A stretch of DNA of 41,003 nt from a virus. The notes under the pieces are model-generated. The model saw only the letters and a list, made by a program, of their open reading frames with translations. It was not told where the DNA came from and ran no database searches. The number at the start of each line of letters is the position of its first letter. Position 1 is the stretch's first letter. A program made the translations under genes and the position numbers. Below are positions 1 to 41,003 of this stretch, piece by piece. The stretch is taken from IMG/VR virus record IMGVR_UViG_3300028393_000135, positions 1 to 41,003 of that record. One strand, 5' to 3'.

Positions 1-280
1 CGTACTGAGTAATAGAGAATTGAGCCGCAGAAATAGGGCTATCAGGGGTGATGTTCAATACTTCGTAACCGCTATATGAATTTGCGTTATTGGTATTTGG
101 ATCGTTGTACATGATTTCTTGCAAAATCACATTACCGCCTGAGAACGGTTGAACATTTCCTTTAGCGTTCAAACGCTGTAGGATCGCATTGTTTTGTGTT
201 AAGTTATCAGCCAAAATTCCGCTACGGCTTTGTATGGTAGTAGCGATAATATCGGTGATTGCTGAGTTAGCAAATGCCAT
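1..280 (-). CDS. Major capsid protein, N-terminal part (left copy, intronless, runs off window)
   Basis: The first 93 codons of a major capsid (coat) protein, starting at the ATG at 280 and running off the left edge. The translation begins MAFANSAITDIIATT and continues without interruption through NVILQEIMYNDPNTNN. The same protein is encoded at 35013-36464, where an intron interrupts the gene inside the leucine codon of VILQEI. Here the equivalent codons read ATT TTG CAA with no insertion, so this is an intron-minus allele. The scaffold gene lies just upstream (304-1398), the usual head-gene order. The assignment rests on synteny and on the C-terminal sequence of the right-hand copy. Confidence 0.8.
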   Translation of the reverse strand, partial: MAFANSAITDIIATTIQSRSGILADNLTQNNAILQRLNAKGNVQPFSGGNVILQEIMYNDPNTNNANSYSGYEVLNITPDSPISAAQFSITQY

Positions 281-3399: not shown

Positions 3400-5576
3400 C
3401 CTGCAATCTCCATAAGAATAAGCGTTGAAGTATCTTGTGTACCGCTTAATTGAACTGTATTACCTAAACGGCTATACCATTGCAATTTATAAGTAGTTGC
3501 AGAAGTGGTTGCAGGGCTATCTAAATAATTAAGACAAGTTGAAGAAGATTGCCAATCAATAGATGTATTACTGTAGCTGACATTTAAAGTTACGGCAATT
3601 TGCGAAGCACCCCTTAACATCCTAAAAGATGCCGCTTGGTTTGCAACGGCAGTATGATAAATACCATTTAATGTAGTTATTACTAATATTTTGCTAGTTG
3701 AAAATTTAGGGGTAATAGTGGCTGTAAAATTAGTTACATCCGTAAAAGATGATGAAGTTGTAGATACTGTTGTTTCAGTTGAGTATTGAACCACTTGCAA
3801 TACACTACCTGCTGGCATTGCTCCATACCCTAAGCCTGTAGCATTAGTCAAAACAATGGCAGATGGAGTGCCTAAAGCAGGGGTTACTAAAGTAGGGGAT
3901 GTAGAAAGTACATTATTGCCCGAACCAGTAGATGTAGTAACTCCTGTACCGCCATTAGTTACTGGCAAAGTTCCTGTTACACCAGTTGTTAGTGGTAATC
4001 CTGTAGCATTTGTCAATGTGGCAGAAGATGGTGTGCCTAATGCACCACCAACAGAATACTTACCATTAAAAGTAGTCCAATCTGTACTGGTCAAGTAGCC
4101 ATTTACGCTAGTTGTAGCCGCCGCCATGCTAATAGCTGGGGTTGCACCGCCTGAAGATACTACTGGGGCAGTACCCGTCACAGAAGTAACTGTTCCGCTA
4201 CCTTTGTTATTAAATGTAGTCCAATCTGCGGCACTTAAAGCACCACGATTAGTAGCTGAAGCTGTTGGCACTTGCAGAGTGATTACAGGGGTTGTAGTGC
4301 CTGTAGCTACGGTAGATGATAGGTCAGTACCAGTTGTGCCTAAAGTTATTGCCGCTACGGATGTAACAGTTCCCGATCCCTTATTATTAAAGGTAGTCCA
4401 ATCCGTGCTAGTCAGGTATCCATTAACGCTAGTTGTAGCCGCTGGCATAGCAATGACAGGCGTTGTTCCACCAGTTGAAGTAACAGGGCTTGTAGCTGTT
4501 ACTGAAGTAACTGTACCCGAACCTTTATTGTTAAATGTTGTCCAATCGGTTGATGTTAAATAACCATTTACAGAAGTCGTGGCGGCTGGCATGGATATAG
4601 CAGGGGTAGCACCACCACTAGAAACTACAGGACTTGTGCCAGTTACGCTAGTTACCGTTCCTACGCTGATTGAACCACCAAGGCTTGTGCTTGTACCGTT
4701 AATGGTAATGGCAGAGTTTGTAAGGCTTGCATTTCCAATATTGCTTAAAGTATTGGTAGATCCTGAAATAGACTTATTGGTAAAAGTATCTGTTGTTGAT
4801 TTGCCGACCAAGGTATCTGTAGCATCAGGTAATGTCAAAGTCCTGTCTACGGTTTGACTTGTTGAAAGCATGGTTCTAGTGTTAGTAGTGCCGCCATCAG
4901 GGTTAAACATAAACCGTTTAGTGCTGTCTACACCACCTTGAACATTGATATAACCACTAGCACCTTTAGGGGCTAAATGAATACCAATGTTTGTATCTGT
5001 ACCTGTTGCTGATATATGAACAGGATTGCCAGTTGAAGCGTTTTCTATGGTTACTTGATTAACTGCACTTGCAATAGCTGAAAACTTTAATTCAGCGTTT
5101 CCATTGGAATCGTTAATTTGAGCTATTACTGGGGTAACAATAGTAGGACTGCCACTTAATACCACATTTGTAGTGCCTGTAGAAGTTGTTACTCCTGTGC
5201 CACCATTGGCAACAGGCAAGGCTGTGCCTGAATAAGTTAAGGCTAAAGTTCCTGAAGTTGTGATTGGACTGCCTGCAACACTTAAAAATGCTGGAACAGT
5301 TGCGGCAACAGAAGTAACCGTACCTGAACCACCTGAAACCGTAGCCCATGAAGCATCAGTTCCGTTAGTTGTTAGGTATTTACCACTATTGGCAGTTTGT
5401 GATGGCAATAAAGCATTTAATCCATCACTAGCCGTAGACGCACCAGTTCCCCCGTTGGCTACAGGGACAGTACCCGTAAGCGTATGGTCAGCGTTCCAAT
5501 CTGACGGCTGAACTAGGGTTGTATCCCCAGCATCAGGTATTGCTGAAATCTTACTGTGCTTGACTGTTATAGCCAT
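3396..5576 (-). CDS. Tail fibre, repeat-containing (left copy)
   Basis: A 726-aa tail fibre. The N-terminus (MAITVKHSKISAIPDAGDTT, then NADHTLTGTVPVANGGTGAST) is typical of phage fibre and tail-collar type proteins. The middle contains about four ~48-residue repeats of the form GTVTSVTGTSPVVSSGGATP, followed by NGYLTSTDWTTFNNKGS. The C-terminal ~140 residues (from VLQVVQYSTETTVSTTSS to LMEIAG) form a separate receptor-binding-like domain, homologous to the end of the 151-aa protein at 23433-23888. It lies between portal and the coiled-coil gene, an unusual place for a fibre but conserved in both copies. Compared with 39359-41003, the shaft is similar but the tip is different, which points to module exchange. 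Confidence 0.85.
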   Translation of the reverse strand: MAITVKHSKISAIPDAGDTTLVQPSDWNADHTLTGTVPVANGGTGASTASDGLNALLPSQTANSGKYLTTNGTDASWATVSGGSGTVTSVAATVPAFLSVAGSPITTSGTLALTYSGTALPVANGGTGVTTSTGTTNVVLSGSPTIVTPVIAQINDSNGNAELKFSAIASAVNQVTIENASTGNPVHISATGTDTNIGIHLAPKGASGYINVQGGVDSTKRFMFNPDGGTTNTRTMLSTSQTVDRTLTLPDATDTLVGKSTTDTFTNKSISGSTNTLSNIGNASLTNSAITINGTSTSLGGSISVGTVTSVTGTSPVVSSGGATPAISMPAATTSVNGYLTSTDWTTFNNKGSGTVTSVTATSPVTSTGGTTPVIAMPAATTSVNGYLTSTDWTTFNNKGSGTVTSVAAITLGTTGTDLSSTVATGTTTPVITLQVPTASATNRGALSAADWTTFNNKGSGTVTSVTGTAPVVSSGGATPAISMAAATTSVNGYLTSTDWTTFNGKYSVGGALGTPSSATLTNATGLPLTTGVTGTLPVTNGGTGVTTSTGSGNNVLSTSPTLVTPALGTPSAIVLTNATGLGYGAMPAGSVLQVVQYSTETTVSTTSSSFTDVTNFTATITPKFSTSKILVITTLNGIYHTAVANQAASFRMLRGASQIAVTLNVSYSNTSIDWQSSSTCLNYLDSPATTSATTYKLQWYSRLGNTVQLSGTQDTSTLILMEIAG
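4065..4660 (-). repeat. In-frame ~144-bp tandem repeats in the tail-fibre shaft
   Basis: About four tandem units of ~48 codons inside the fibre gene, each ending in a conserved NGYLTSTDWTTFN(N/G)K segment. One unit has a divergent middle (GTTGTDLSSTVATG) and ADWTTFNNK instead of TDWTTFNNK. Repeats of this kind allow shaft-length change by recombination. The boundaries are approximate. Confidence 0.7.
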
Positions 5577-35012: not shown

Positions 35013-36464
35013 TTAAGTTGTCAAAACACCTTGCAAAAACGCATTTGAACAAGTCAAATTTCCAGCCCAACCATACAACTTCACAATCTTTCTGTTACTT
35101 CGGCTTTCGCCTACTGACCATTTTCATGGCGGAGCAACTTCTTCGAATCGCTCTCTAGGACTTCAAACTTCAAGTTATATCCTAGTTCAGACTATCGCTT
35201 ACTCTTTCGAGCCCATCTCACTTAGTCGTTCACGGTGGCTTTCGCCTTCCGCCCTGTCATCCCCTTCGGGATTTCCAAGTCAATCAGAGTTGGTTTATAG
35301 ACACCATTAATGCAATGTAGGTTTAGCGTCTTGGTTAATGGATTGGCGTTCTCCACCGATAGGAACGAAATTACGCTCTTTATGTGGACGCAAGAAAATG
35401 TAATTTGTGTTTAGCAAATACATATATGTTGCGTTTTCTTGAGCACCGTAACCGCCACCCAAGATCACATCAGCAGACATACCGCCACCGTAGAACTTGA
35501 GGGAAGCGAAACCAGCCGCACCTTCTTCTACACCTGCGATACGCTGAATAGCCTGTAAAGACTGAACATAGTATGAGTAGAAAGTGTTACCAGCTACGAT
35601 TGTGTCAACCTTATCAGTTCCGCGAACAGACTTGATAGCGGCATCAGTCATTTTAGCTTGAATGTTTGCGTAACCAGTTACACCAGTTGTCGCTTGATTC
35701 TGCCAAAATGTCCAGTTGGCACGATTTATGCCACCGTACACGCCCGACGTAGGGCTAGTACTAACGGCCGCGGCCAATCCGGTGATGTTTTTTCCCCCGT
35801 TACCTGTACCGTCACCATAGATGTCAGTAGAAATACGGTTCAACAAACGAGCTTCAGAAACTTGCATACGGCCGTCTAACAGGTCGATGATCTGTTCCTT
35901 AGAACTGTTTTGCAACATTTCTAGACCACTCATTGTCACAGAATCAGCGTACTGCGTAATGCTGAACTGAGCCGCAGAGATAGGGCTATCAGGGGTAATA
36001 TTCAATACTTCATAACCGCTATACGAGTTAGCATTATTTGTATTTGGATCGTTGTACATAATTTCTTGGCACTGTTGTTACGAACCGATCCAGTTCGGCA
36101 TAGTCATTTCTGCTATGCTCTTGGACTTAAATTACTTCAAGTTATATCCAAGGTCAGACTATCGCTCCATCCGTTTCGGATGCCCTCTCACTTAGTCGTT
36201 CAGGCTGTATTTAAACTTGCCCCTTGTTGTCCCCTTCGGGAGTTCCAAGCCAATCAGAGAAGGTTCTCACATCTACATTCGACTGTAGAGTGACCCCATT
36301 TAACTAAGGATTACATTTCCCCCACTAAAAGGCTGTACATTCCCTTTAGCTTGTAAGCGTTGAAGAATCGCATTGTTTTGTGTTAAGTTATCTGCCAATA
36401 CTCCGCTACGGCTTTGAATGGTAGTAGCGATAATATCGGTGATTGCTGAATTAGCAAATGCCAT
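35013..36464 (-). CDS. Major capsid protein, split by two group I introns
   Basis: Three exons join into 984 nt (327 aa): 36464-36307, 36069-35315 and 35083-35013. Exon 1 begins MAFANSAITDIIATT and ends inside the Leu codon of NVIL. Exon 2 continues QEIMYNDPNTNNANSYSGYE to DAKPT. Exon 3 encodes KLYGWAGNLTCSNAFLQGVLTT after the rebuilt Leu codon. GWAGNLTCSNAFLQGVLTT is a characteristic coat-protein C-terminus, and no stop occurs in the joined frame, whereas exon 2 alone stops within the intron. The left-end copy (1-280) reads through the first junction without an intron. The protein forms the capsid lattice. Downstream are the 97-aa head gene and a terminator. Splice points are chosen by frame, the U-G pair at the 5' site and a G at the intron end. 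Confidence 0.85.
35084..35314 (-). ncRNA. Group I intron 2 in the major capsid gene
   Basis: A 231-nt insertion near the 3' end of the capsid gene. The 5' splice site is ACAT|TG, where ACAU pairs with GUGU in the intron (U-G at the splice site). It ends in G before TGAAG. The core matches intron 1: GGAAATCCCGAAGGGGAT, then GAACGACTAAGTGAGATGG and AAGCGATAGTCTGA, forming P7 (TAGTC/GACTA on the plus strand at 35223-35227 and 35190-35194), with a GCTC-GAAA-GAGT P8 hairpin between. A CTAGGA/TCCTAG helix follows (35155-35160, 35180-35185). No ORF is present, so it has no homing endonuclease of its own. Confidence 0.85.
36070..36306 (-). ncRNA. Group I intron 1 in the major capsid gene
   Basis: A 237-nt insertion after codon 52 plus two bases of the capsid gene. 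The 5' exon ends AUCCU, which pairs with GGGGU in the intron, with the U-G wobble at the splice site. The intron ends in G before CCAAGAAATT. Core: GCTTGGAACTCCCGAAGGGG, then GAACGACTAAGTGAGAGGGC, a P8 hairpin CATCCG-AAA-CGGATG, and GAGCGATAGTCTGACC closing P7 (36157-36161 with 36193-36197). A CTTGGA/TCCAAG helix follows (36120-36125 with 36147-36152). The equivalent helix in intron 2 is CTAGGA/TCCTAG, a compensatory change. The intron is ORF-less, and absent from the left copy at about 126-130. Confidence 0.88.
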
Positions 36465-36487
36465 GATATTTCCTTTATTAGATTAAG

Positions 36488-37594
36488 TTAAACCCGACCA
36501 CCTTCAACATCGGCTAAAGAAGCCAACAATAAAGATCGTCTATCCTTTGCATCTGTGTTTTTCACCTGACCGCTAGGAGTAACGGACTTTGGACTAACAG
36601 CAGTCGCTTTAGCTTTAGCTACTTGTTGTGCCTTAGATGCTTGTGAACTCGTTGATCTCAGGAGTTTATCCTGCTCCAACTTGAACGCTTCATCATTCAT
36701 ACGCACAGCTTTGGCATAAGCCGATTCTAGGTCTTGGGCTAAACCTCGCTCAAGTAATTGAGCCATATCTTCCCTTACCATATCAAAGTGCGGAAACCGC
36801 TCTCTGTCACTACTTACCCGATTGATTTCATTACTCAATCGAGCATTTTCTTCTTGCTCCCGTATCGCTGATAGTTGCTGAACTTGTTGCTGGGTAGCTT
36901 GAAGTTGTTGCATTAACTGTTGCTGATACGGATCAACATACGCCTGTTCAGGCATCTGAAGTGCATCTTGGTTTAATTGTATTCCATAATCTTGTGCAAG
37001 TCTATTAAACGCAGTTAGCTTTTGCTCGTAAGAACCGTTGGCTAAAGTGTAATGTGCTCTACCTAAATTGTTAATCCAAGCAGAAGGTGAAATACCATGC
37101 TTTTGCAATTCAGGAATAAATGGGCCAATAGCGTTAGTTATCTCTCTAGCATTGTCGGCTTCAGCTTTGTAGGTAGATACGCCTTTTTTGTATTCAGCTT
37201 CACGCTGGTTGGCATATTCAGCAAACTTAATAAATTCAGCCTTGTCTAATGGCTTGCCTTCCTGCATCTTGTCCCAAACATCCCGATACTCTTTTTTCCA
37301 AGTAGTAGGGCGTTTTACTTCGGCTTCTTCATTATCATCACCAGCTTCATTAGCCAGTTCAGATTCTTGATTGGAATTGTCTTGGCTACTGGTTTCTTCG
37401 GCATTGCTTTTGAAACGACCTTTTTCGTCACGGTCGTTGCTTTTTTGGCTACTATCGTTGCTTTCTTGGTTTTCGGCTTGGATTGGGTCGTCATTTACTT
37501 CAATCTCCTTTTCAATGGGGGCTTCTAATGTACCTTCTTCGGCTTGTTCTAATGCGGCTTCTAGCATTTCTCTGCGGTCTAATTCTTCTGCCAT
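36488..37594 (-). CDS. Scaffolding protein (right copy)
   Basis: A 368-aa scaffold, nearly identical to 304-1398, just upstream of the capsid gene. Differences cluster in the acidic linker (residues ~40-90), where a SNDSSQKSNDRDEKG-type insertion replaces the left version, and in scattered conservative changes. It has the same coiled coil near residues 220-255 and the same basic C-terminus. Role inferred from gene order. Confidence 0.75.
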   Translation of the reverse strand: MAEELDRREMLEAALEQAEEGTLEAPIEKEIEVNDDPIQAENQESNDSSQKSNDRDEKGRFKSNAEETSSQDNSNQESELANEAGDDNEEAEVKRPTTWKKEYRDVWDKMQEGKPLDKAEFIKFAEYANQREAEYKKGVSTYKAEADNAREITNAIGPFIPELQKHGISPSAWINNLGRAHYTLANGSYEQKLTAFNRLAQDYGIQLNQDALQMPEQAYVDPYQQQLMQQLQATQQQVQQLSAIREQEENARLSNEINRVSSDRERFPHFDMVREDMAQLLERGLAQDLESAYAKAVRMNDEAFKLEQDKLLRSTSSQASKAQQVAKAKATAVSPKSVTPSGQVKNTDAKDRRSLLLASLADVEGGRV

Positions 37595-37603
37595 GATTAA
37601 TTC

Positions 37604-38002
37604 CTATCTGTAGTTGAGTTTGGAGTAAGCTATTTCCGCAATTTGTTGCTTGCGTTCTTGCTGTTCTTTTCTTGAAAATTCATGCACTTTTTGCTGTAAT
37701 GGAACATCATTACCCAACTCAACACAATTGTTGCGTTTTAAATTTTCACGGTGCTTTGAACGGCTGGATACCCAAGTACCATCAGCCATGCTTATATGAC
37801 CGTTGATGTCAGGAAGTACCATTGGGGCTTCTTTAGGTGTCATATCTAACTTGGCTTGCCATGCTTTATCGGCTTCTTCGCCTTCAAACGGCAAATTCCA
37901 ATACGCTAAGTACTTTTCACGGTCATTATATTGCGTTGCATCATATTCTTCGTGGTCAACCTTACAATGTATGCAAGTTACCGTCTTTTTTACTAAAGCC
38001 AT
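37604..38002 (-). CDS. Conserved head-module protein with CxxC N-terminus (right copy)
   Basis: A 132-aa homologue of 1408-1785. The N-terminus is different (ALVKKTVTCIHCKVDHEEYD, one CxxC), but the C-terminal ~70 residues (HISMADGTWVSSRSKHRENL and after) are conserved. The bipartite divergence suggests that the N-terminal half has been replaced by recombination or is under diversifying pressure. Function unknown. Confidence 0.7.
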   Translation of the reverse strand: MALVKKTVTCIHCKVDHEEYDATQYNDREKYLAYWNLPFEGEEADKAWQAKLDMTPKEAPMVLPDINGHISMADGTWVSSRSKHRENLKRNNCVELGNDVPLQQKVHEFSRKEQQERKQQIAEIAYSKLNYR

Positions 38003-38907
38003 TACATTCTCCTTATCAGTTCAGGCAGTTGGTCGTATTCTTCGGGTCTGAGTAGGCAAATGCTGTCATACCAACGGGCATTTTTCCATCGCCAGCAAAC
38101 AAATTCTTCTTTTGGTAGCAAAACAATACATTTCACGCCCAAAGCACCAGCAAGGTGAGCCGTTCCTGTGTCAACGGTCACGATTCCCTTCATGGCTTTC
38201 ATGTGGCTGGCTGTTTGTACCCAGTTTTTCTTCCATCCATCATTAGGAAGTGGGTGAAATAGGCCATCAGAGTTAGGATTGAGCGAATATGCGTCATCTC
38301 CAACCAGTTCAGCCATGTGTTGATGGGCAATAGACTTGATGTAATACAGAGTTTGTTTGGATGCTTCCCAATTTACCCCTATTTTGGGTGGAATATTGCT
38401 AGGCAGGGCGTGTAGATAGCCTTCTGAACCCACAATCTTGTTCCGTGTAACGGGAAATAGCGATTTAACAAGGGGGTGCATCAAAGAAATATAGTACGGG
38501 AGTGACATTGAGCCAATCCAATAGTCAGATTCGTTGGCAATACCCTCTAATCCATTGCTAAACACATCTACAGCGTGTATTTGACCTAATAGGTGGTGCA
38601 ATGTACCTTCTTGCAGGACAACGACCCTAGATGCCCCCAATGCTTTCAAAGCTGGCAAAAATCGGGCAAACATAATGATGTCACCAAATCCCTGTTCCAT
38701 TTGTACGGTGATGGATTTACCTATCAGCGGCTCACCTCTCCATACAGGCATTTTTAAAGCAGGTGCGTAAGGTTGGGCTTGTTTGGCAATAATGTCAGGA
38801 TGCCAGCGGTATTCAAATCCTCTAAATCCAGCTTCATACCTTCCAGCGTGTAAATGCTCGTAAGCTAACTTGTATTGTGCGTCAGCGTCTAATGTAGAAG
38901 TATTAAT
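38002..38907 (-). CDS. Glycosyltransferase-like protein, probable AUU start (right copy)
   Basis: The homologue of 1785-2690, with identical length if started at the ATT at 38907-38905, seven bases after GAGG. It carries the same GKSITVQMEQGFGDI and VTVDTGTAHLAGALGVKC motifs. The ATG at 38751 would remove a conserved TPR-like segment. The 5' part varies around the start (INTSTLDADAQ instead of ITTTALDADSQ), but the ATT and the GAGG are kept. Confidence 0.72.
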   Translation of the reverse strand: MNTSTLDADAQYKLAYEHLHAGRYEAGFRGFEYRWHPDIIAKQAQPYAPALKMPVWRGEPLIGKSITVQMEQGFGDIIMFARFLPALKALGASRVVVLQEGTLHHLLGQIHAVDVFSNGLEGIANESDYWIGSMSLPYYISLMHPLVKSLFPVTRNKIVGSEGYLHALPSNIPPKIGVNWEASKQTLYYIKSIAHQHMAELVGDDAYSLNPNSDGLFHPLPNDGWKKNWVQTASHMKAMKGIVTVDTGTAHLAGALGVKCIVLLPKEEFVCWRWKNARWYDSICLLRPEEYDQLPELIRRM

Positions 38908-39359
38908 ACGGATTCCTCATCGTCTAGTTCCTCTAGGCGTTTGGCTTCCATATACATCAATTGCTCTTGAATAAGAGTTTGTTGTTTTCTGTAAGCTACT
39001 GCCGCAAGGATGTTATCCCGTTGTCTTTCGAGGTAGCTTATAGACCGTTGTAAATCTTCTGTTTCAGCTAACGGTATATCAGCCTTAACCTCTTGTTTTG
39101 ATTGTACTTTAGATTGCTTAACTTTTGCAACAGGCGATACTAGATCACGAATGGATTGTTTACGACTAGCATTAGCATCTTTAATAGCTTGCTCTAGCTT
39201 GCGTTGACGCTCTGCAATCTTTTTGCCTAATCGTTGTGCTCGTAACCATTCTTCTTTGGTAAAGCCATCGCCACCAATTTGCCCTGTTGGGGTCGGTGCT
39301 ACATAGACCTGAAAGGCATTGTTTTGAAACGCATTAGCTTGAAAAGCCGTTGAAAACAT
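38889..39359 (-). CDS. Coiled-coil protein of the fibre/head module (right copy)
   Basis: A 156-aa homologue of 2672-3148: MFSTAFQANAFQNNAFQVYV, then a linker with GQIGGDGFTKEEWLRAQRLG and the same two helical blocks. The start overlaps the fibre stop (TAATG), whereas the left copy starts after the 82-aa partner gene. This position shift accompanies the fibre-tip exchange. Function unknown. Confidence 0.65.
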   Translation of the reverse strand: MFSTAFQANAFQNNAFQVYVAPTPTGQIGGDGFTKEEWLRAQRLGKKIAERQRKLEQAIKDANASRKQSIRDLVSPVAKVKQSKVQSKQEVKADIPLAETEDLQRSISYLERQRDNILAAVAYRKQQTLIQEQLMYMEAKRLEELDDEESVLILLH

Positions 39360-41003
39360 TACAAAACTACCCAGCGTGACCCACTAGAAACTGTCACAGC
39401 TTGACCTGAAGCTACGGTCATTGGCCCTGCACTCATGGCACTTGAGCCGCTAGGGATTGTATAGCTTGCCGATACAGTATTGCTATTTACGACTATGCCG
39501 TTAGTAGCTTGAATGACTGTACCCTTGACGCTATTTGGGGAAGTTCCACCGATAGCAGGGGGGCTAGATAAATCTAATGTGCCGCCAAGTGTCAGGTTGC
39601 CAGTAGAAGTAACCGTACCGCTAAGACTAATTCCTGAAACTGTACCTGTACCGCTTACGCTGGTAACCGTGCCTGAACCCTTGTTATTAAAGGTTGTCCA
39701 ATCGGTGCTAGTCAGATAGCCGTTTACTGAACCTGTAGCGGCTGCCATACTAATTGCTGGGGTTGCACCGCCTGAAGATACAACGGGAGCAGTACCCGTT
39801 ACAGAAGTAACTGTTCCGCTACCTTTGCTATTAAAGGTGTTCCAATCTGTAGAAGTTAGATAACCGCTTACAGAAGTGGTGGCCGCTGGCATTGCAATGG
39901 TAGGTGTTGTACCGCCTGAACTGGTAACAGGGCTGGTTGCCGCTACGGATGTTACATAAGTTCCAGCAGGTTGTTTGCCATTAAATGTAGTCCAATCAGC
40001 ACTTGTAAGGTAGCCATTTACGCTACTTGTGGCGGCTGGCATTGATATAGCAGGAGTATTGCCACCGCTGGAAACTACTGGACTTGTACCAGTTACACTA
40101 GTAACCGTACCACCGCTAGATGGACTTGTGTTGGTAATCGTAAAATTAGGGTATGTACCGCTAGTAGAAATACCTGTACCAGCAGTCAAGACTACAGTTT
40201 GGTCAGGAGCAGTATTGGTAATGTTTAAAGTACCGCTACTGGTAATAGGGCTTCCAGTTACGCTAATTCCTGTACCTGCTGTTGCCGCTACGCTTGTAAC
40301 CGTTCCTACGCTGATTGAGCCACCAAGACTTGTGCTAGTGCCGTTGATGGTAATAGCTGAATTGGCTAATTGTGCGTTAGTTACTGTGCCCGATAAGTCA
40401 GTTGTAGGGATTGTAGAAGCGGCAGTTAAAGCACTTGTTCCGCTACCTTTCACATATCCAGTTAAAGTTGTAGCCCCAGTACCGCCCCTGTTTACTGCAA
40501 CAGTATTGCCATTCCAAGTAGTTGAAGTAATTGAGCCAGCATAATCAAATGTATTGGTAGACCAACTTACATTAGCTGGAGCATAATCATGCCTATCCCA
40601 AGAACCAGCCGCAGTTGCATTAGATAACAAATTAACCCGAACAAGACCACCGCTAGGTACAGAAACAATTAGCGTGTTGGAATTGTTATTAACAGTAATT
40701 GCACCGCTACTTTGGTTGTTATCAAATTCAAATATTTCGCCATTTACTAAAGTGGTTGCATCGGGCAATTTAATTGTTTGACCGCCTGAACCAGTAATAG
40801 TGTATCTGCGTACAGAAGCCGCAGTTGATACTATTTGTGTTCCTGAAGCGGCAGTATTGGTATATCCATCATTAAAAGCATTAGCATTTATGTTTACATT
40901 AGCATCACGCAAAACAACGCTGTTTGCACCACTTGAAGCTGTAACTCCAGTACCACCGTTTGCTACAGGTAAAGCCGTGCCTGAATAAGTTAAAGCCAAT
41001 GTT
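39359..41003 (-). CDS. Tail fibre (right copy, 5' end beyond window)
   Basis: A fibre open to the window edge (547+ residues, N-terminus missing). Its first visible segment (TLALTYSGTALPVANGGTGV) matches residues near 110-130 of the left fibre. About three 48-residue repeats with NGYLTSTDWTTFN(N/G/S)K follow. The C-terminus ends VSASYTIPSGSSAMSAGPMT, then ASGQAVTVSSGSRWVVL, a different tip from the left copy's LMEIAG domain but the same type as the end of 25848-26348. Probably a host-range determinant. Confidence 0.85.
   Translation of the reverse strand, partial: TLALTYSGTALPVANGGTGVTASSGANSVVLRDANVNINANAFNDGYTNTAASGTQIVSTAASVRRYTITGSGGQTIKLPDATTLVNGEIFEFDNNQSSGAITVNNNSNTLIVSVPSGGLVRVNLLSNATAAGSWDRHDYAPANVSWSTNTFDYAGSITSTTWNGNTVAVNRGGTGATTLTGYVKGSGTSALTAASTIPTTDLSGTVTNAQLANSAITINGTSTSLGGSISVGTVTSVAATAGTGISVTGSPITSSGTLNITNTAPDQTVVLTAGTGISTSGTYPNFTITNTSPSSGGTVTSVTGTSPVVSSGGNTPAISMPAATSSVNGYLTSADWTTFNGKQPAGTYVTSVAATSPVTSSGGTTPTIAMPAATTSVSGYLTSTDWNTFNSKGSGTVTSVTGTAPVVSSGGATPAISMAAATGSVNGYLTSTDWTTFNNKGSGTVTSVSGTGTVSGISLSGTVTSTGNLTLGGTLDLSSPPAIGGTSPNSVKGTVIQATNGIVVNSNTVSASYTIPSGSSAMSAGPMTVASGQAVTVSSGSRWVVL
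39660..40110 (-). repeat. In-frame ~144-bp repeats in the right fibre shaft
   Basis: About three repeats of the GTVTSV...TDWTTFN type, related to those at 4065-4660 but with a different order and count of units; one joint reads ADWTTFNGKQPAGTYVTSV. Boundaries are approximate. Confidence 0.65.

Follow-up and report, generated by a model that had tools for sequence, protein, structure and literature searches.

Most of what is known of exon co-conversion by group I introns comes from laboratory crosses of phage T4 and from organelle genes. In T4-like phages, the td intron with its endonuclease I-TevI is a group I intron that interrupts a phage protein gene, and transfer of the intron to intronless alleles is accompanied by co-conversion of the flanking exons (PMC2988022); in T4 the break is made by the intron-encoded endonuclease (PMC2988022, PMC3984707). 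Introns without an endonuclease gene can also be moved by endonucleases acting in trans (PMC2988022, PMC3984707), and trans or collaborative homing of this kind is described for T4 nrdB with MobE and for cyanophage psbA with F-CphI (PMC2988022, PMC3984707, PMC10448857). Group I introns in a major capsid gene are found in the Cluster J mycobacteriophages LittleE and BAKA, where one capsid intron has a reverse-strand endonuclease gene and the tail-gene introns have none (PMC3706429). Many group I introns, a good part of them with endonuclease genes, have been reported in a single phage group, the Bastillevirinae, in a paper whose text, by term search, does not mention capsid genes or conversion (PMC11878797).

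Here we analyse two introns in the major head protein gene of a tailed phage. The principal one resembles td in that it is a group I intron, interrupts a phage protein gene and appears to enter intronless alleles together with flanking exon, but differs from td/I-TevI in that its 237 nt contain no endonuclease, the host gene encodes the capsid, and the evidence is comparative rather than a cross. As in nrdB and psbA, an intron seems to spread without its own endonuclease; unlike in nrdB/MobE and psbA/F-CphI, the search found no free-standing endonuclease nearby that goes consistently with the intron. The capsid location is shared with Cluster J, although the phages are different and about ten insertion sites occur here in one capsid family, with up to three introns per gene. 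A phage group I intron with exon co-conversion is in itself known; the natural data set is unusually clean.

The window (the whole stretch of DNA analysed, 41,003 bases) is an IMG/VR virus record classed as linear. In self-comparison its first 3.1 kb match 36310-39351 at 86.7% identity, and positions 1-121 match 35948-36068 at 87.6%. The repeat offset is about 36 kb and the longest related contigs are 34-37 kb, consistent with a contig that covers a circularly permuted phage genome once in full and then runs into a second strain at its end, so that the two capsid copies would belong to two strains. The overlap of the contig ends (1-5250 and 35948-41003, about 13% divergence) is probably a wrap-around chimera of these strains. 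Both strain copies of a long repetitive protein gene have internal repeats (4059-4718 and 39663-40363, 70-87% identity). The capsid gene (35013-36464, reverse strand) encodes a major head protein (PHROG 9953, E 7e-91) and has two interruptions, with the following features.

36307-36464, reverse strand: major head protein exon 1, from codon 1 through the second base of codon 53 (end ...GTA ATC CT), from homology to 579 capsid loci and to PHROG 9953 (E 7e-91).
36307-36311, reverse strand: AUCCU, the strand of P1 contributed by the 5' exon, which does not vary among intron-bearing alleles (junction survey).
36070-36306, reverse strand: intron A, a 237-nt group I intron with guide GGGGU at 36297-36293 and last base G, absent from the left copy and most relatives; it has a P3-P8 core, and its splice sites were set from intronless relatives.
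35325-36069, reverse strand: major head protein exon 2, from homology and reading frame.
35088-35324, reverse strand: intron B, a second 237-nt group I intron with 5' exon ...GACGCT, guide GGUGUC and last base G; its core is 79% identical to that of intron A, and its boundaries come from intronless relatives (NQDA|IVKLYGW).
35013-35087, reverse strand: major head protein exon 3 (IVKLYGWAGNLTCSNAFLQGVLTT stop), with boundaries from intronless relatives, giving a spliced product of 325 aa.
1-280, reverse strand: another copy of the capsid gene's 5' part, lacking the intron (the other strain, at the wrap-around end), from alignment at 87.6% and 86.7% identity.

The first-pass annotation had recorded an insertion at 36070-36306 that the left copy lacks, and it is indeed, on the reverse strand, exactly 237 nt and missing from the homologous left copy, where the empty site lies between window bases 122 and 123. 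Intron A splits the Leu-53 codon (ATC CT|C). The spliced intron allele reads GTA ATC CT|C CAA GAA and the left copy GTG ATT TT|G CAA GAA, both encoding V-I-L-Q-E; the changed target read earlier as ATTTTG|CAAG is thus real, but its bar was one base off, the true position being ATTTT|G. Intron B lies in the same gene and was absent from that annotation. Placing its boundary after ACATTGCAT gave a spurious TLH and a seeming amino-acid change; this placement was ruled out by the junction GACGCT|ATTGTG in intronless relatives, and the change therefore does not exist.

In every analysed intron of sites A, A' and B, with boundaries set by intronless relatives, a U precedes the intron and a G ends it. 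P1 carries a U.G at the splice site in both introns (AUCCU/GGGGU in intron A, GACGCU/GGUGUC in intron B). The group I core elements P3, P4, P6, P7 and P8 are present, with P3 and P7 interleaved. Across 45 distinct introns P4, P6 and P7 are paired in all and P3 at all but one position, and compensatory changes occur in P3 and P6 (C-G/G-C swaps) and in P8; P7 (GACUA/UAGUC) is invariant and so says nothing on covariation. No Rfam model matches either intron at gathering or at relaxed thresholds up to E 10. Existing models under-represent phage intron groups (PMC11878797), and a match to an Rfam group I model was treated as a detection aid, not as a defining feature. On these sequence features, 36070-36306 is assigned as a group I intron, presumably self-splicing, that interrupts the major head protein gene of a tailed phage. 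A plain list of reading frames breaks the capsid gene; annotation of phages like these may overlook their capsid genes or cut them short.

The first-pass annotation had further held that the bases differing between the copies are exactly those that pair with the intron guide. Pairing of AUCCU with GGGGU is possible (computed -3.9 kcal/mol, against -0.9 kcal/mol for AUUUU), but "exactly" does not hold, since 34 of 92 comparable codons differ and the differences cluster upstream. Codons 33-53, just upstream of site A, contain 21 of the 41 nucleotide differences, nearly all synonymous (codon shuffle p = 2e-5), with just four codons changed in codons 1-32. The 60 nt leading up to the site hold 20 differences, and the 600 nt upstream about 3 per 60 nt. 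Another divergent patch between the copies, about 1.3-1.7 kb upstream, has no intron (about 1463-1763 against the right copy near 37604-38000); a single left/right pair is therefore not proof, and population data were needed.

The search detected 579 capsid relatives, of which the best 80 were kept, and pattern scans added further capsid loci as well as 39 loci with A-type and 64 with B-type intron patterns, of which a small number belong to unrelated genes. More than 200 related phages were compared. Capsid identity to the closest isolated phages is below 60%, and a host search in bacterial genomes gave two distant metagenome-assembled matches, uninformative as to the host.

Comparison of these capsid genes ties the target sequence to the intron, the correlation with flanking codons that the first-pass annotation had proposed to look for: the junction ATCCT|C is present at all 26 intron-bearing site-A loci and in 11 of 156 distinct intronless alleles. 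ATTTTG is the site in 66 of the intronless alleles and ATCTTG in 34; ATCCT is present in 32 and ATCCTC in 11. Of the pattern named there as contrary, one half was found, ATCCT being kept in 32 of the 156 intronless alleles, and the other was not, as TTTTG occurs in no intron-bearing allele. The association extends to codon 56, which lies outside the guide pairing and is ATT in 15 of 20 distinct intron-bearing alleles and 16 of 156 intronless ones (p 1e-9). For intron B, the six-base target GACGCT is present in 27/27 intron-bearing and 19/139 intronless alleles (p 5e-19), and the 12-nt 5' exon AACCAAGACGCT is invariant in the 27 distinct alleles and found in 17/139 intronless ones. The closest intronless relatives at site A lack ATCCT in 12 of 14 cases (reading ATTTTG, ATCTTG, ATCTTA or ATACTT) and ATCCT|C in 14 of 14; at site B, 14 of 14 lack GACGCT.

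Exchange of the flanks was assessed by comparing every intron-bearing allele with the intronless relative closest to it over codons 110-289, with intronless pairs at the same distance as control; the flanks were codons 40-52 and 55-67, and codons 2-27 and 110-139 served as control regions. Flank divergence exceeded the matched control mean in 18 of 18 lineages, which are not fully independent (0.168 against 0.089, combined p 4e-6), and the same matched test showed no effect in the control regions. Three distance strata gave p values of 0.033, 0.011 and 0.0016; the fourth, with one pair, has none. The exon exchange lies on both sides of intron A and almost entirely at synonymous sites.

The clearest single case is the intron-bearing L320 and the intronless L010, which diverge by about 1%. 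They show no difference in codons 1-48, differ at codons 49, 51, 52, 53, 56, 68, 69, 72 and 76, and then not again until codon 174. Codons 49-76 of L320 are those of the window's intron allele, codon 65 excepted, while elsewhere the two genes differ by about 13%; the donor tract thus covers about 14 nt upstream and about 70 nt downstream. The recipient-type sequence is common to the intronless L010 and L016 and to the window's left copy, so the direction is gain. In a second pair (L316 and L080) the tract runs from about codon 29 to 102 (about 75 codons) and spans introns at codons 53 and 71; the scan gave p <= 5e-5 for each pair. For intron B, a close pair (L149 and L179) has a backbone divergence of 0.9% and a flank divergence of 17.8%. 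The pooled flank test for intron B, over all pairs and divergences, gave no signal, which is clear for close pairs only. Co-conversion at intron arrival, one of the two readings offered in the first-pass annotation, is supported by the population comparison at two introns and is the best reading of these alignments, with a change wider than the guide-pairing bases.

The other reading offered there, a resistant site in the intronless strain, whose target would have changed so as to keep the intron out, agrees with the poor computed pairing of ATTTT with the guide and with the prevalence of ATTTTG or ATCTTG among intronless alleles. Yet ATTTTG, ATCTTG and ATCTTA backgrounds did receive the intron, and 32 of the 156 intronless alleles keep ATCCT. 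L320 itself was invaded in an ATTTTG background, as carried by its nearest intronless relatives, so that this allele is not resistant in nature; we consider a resistant site highly improbable. An ancestral intron that was repeatedly lost, the matching site being the old state from which intronless alleles drifted, is also quite unlikely. The 11 intronless alleles reading exactly ATCCTC are what precise loss would leave, and some intronless loci have intron-type flanks, for example L154, L155 and L172 (candidates for precise intron loss or for unfilled donor haplotypes), but most intronless alleles bear no trace of the intron haplotype, and the intron stretch of L320 departs from its own clade and agrees with another lineage, which makes it a gain.

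Those introns at sites A and B that were analysed measure about 230-245 nt, and none encodes an endonuclease, so they are not classed as homing introns with an endonuclease of their own. Four Pfam families (HNH_3, HNH, GIY-YIG and LAGLIDADG) have no match in the window. In 40 records, a survey of these families and of unshared reading frames near the capsid gene yielded no consistent partner endonuclease: HNH_3 genes occur in 7 of the 40 records without clear association to intron presence, by a search that has false negatives (a GIY-YIG reading frame in L330, accepted by hmmscan, was missed), and HNH genes lie near a few capsid genes (L337, L332 and L016), again with no consistent link to the intron. 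The driver of the movement can therefore only be inferred.

This leaves room for passive hitch-hiking, in which ordinary homologous recombination between co-infecting phages moves capsid segments and the introns ride along with no endonuclease. Such recombination fits the failure to find an endonuclease in the introns or the window, and the 75-codon tract of L316 is compatible with it. Intronless pairs also show a mild rise in divergence at codons 33-73, so this part of the gene recombines anyway; at matched backbone distance, however, intron-bearing lineages show a rise roughly twice as large. The L320 tract also seems short for unaided recombination across a 237-nt insertion, and without drive an intron would not be expected to recur at identical sites across this many lineages. 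For the drive, though not for the conversion as such, unaided recombination is a serious rival; as a full account, hitch-hiking appears possible but doubtful.

Introns in the capsid family, the intron hotspot (L330, L344, L366, L352, L322, L329 and others), lie near codons 27, 49, 53, 61, 68, 71, 83, 149, 273 and 301 (about ten sites), and a single gene can hold as many as three (L329). Endonuclease genes are present in two long introns, a GIY-YIG frame at codon 27 (L330) and a reverse-strand HNH frame at codon 68 (L344); what looked like introns at codon 68 of L324 and L339 proved to be the codon-53 intron duplicated in the alignment. The GGGG guide recurs in introns of the site-A lineage at about codon 149 (L317, L326, L330, L331 and L340) and at codon 273 (L322, L333 and L335); each splits a Leu codon as CT|C, and L335 has two in one gene. 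As CCU|C is split at these sites too, it is probably needed for splicing, and its last C perhaps pairs with the first G of the guide. One tentative and rather unlikely extension is that an endonuclease-less group I lineage has come to occupy the three Leu codons through one guide (CCU|C/GGGG), relying on co-conversion to put the bases needed for splicing into non-matching recipient sites, and with no dedicated endonuclease at all.

The recurrence of guide GGGG and junction CCU|C at three places of the gene family (codon 53, about 149 and 273) would be expected of an intron that reaches new sites by short base pairing, as in RNA-level spread by reverse splicing into capsid mRNA with a matching target, followed by reverse transcription and recombination. 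Reverse splicing requires the matching target beforehand (PMC3984707), so the invasion of non-matching sites argues against it within a site: the closest intronless relatives mostly lack ATCCT and uniformly lack ATCCT|C at site A and GACGCT at site B. Reverse splicing alone would also not bring foreign exon sequence, and this route is very unlikely.

The invaded non-matching sites fit repair of the DNA on an intron-bearing template, the splice-site partner arriving within the exon tract, and we hold it likely, with good confidence, that intron A spreads between related phages by DNA-level gene conversion that brings flanking exon with the P1 partner. The intron-bearing allele would serve as repair template for the intronless one, perhaps after a double-strand break, which an endonuclease acting in trans may make. 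The recipient would gain the intron and about 10-150 nt of donor exon per side, including the CCU|C that would face the guide GGGG and be needed for P1 pairing. Because the flank brings these pairing bases, the intron could enter alleles with a poorly pairing site such as ATTTTG. The left copy of the window is an empty allele of this kind and the right copy a donor-type allele.

In natural phage populations, near-isogenic pairs with and without the intron allow the tract edges to be read to a few bases, for two introns of one gene. They suggest a simple role for co-conversion, namely delivery of the intron's own splice-site partner to alleles that lack it. As the introns at sites A and B encode no endonuclease, the system can be used to test how small introns continue to spread within a gene that is essential and highly expressed.
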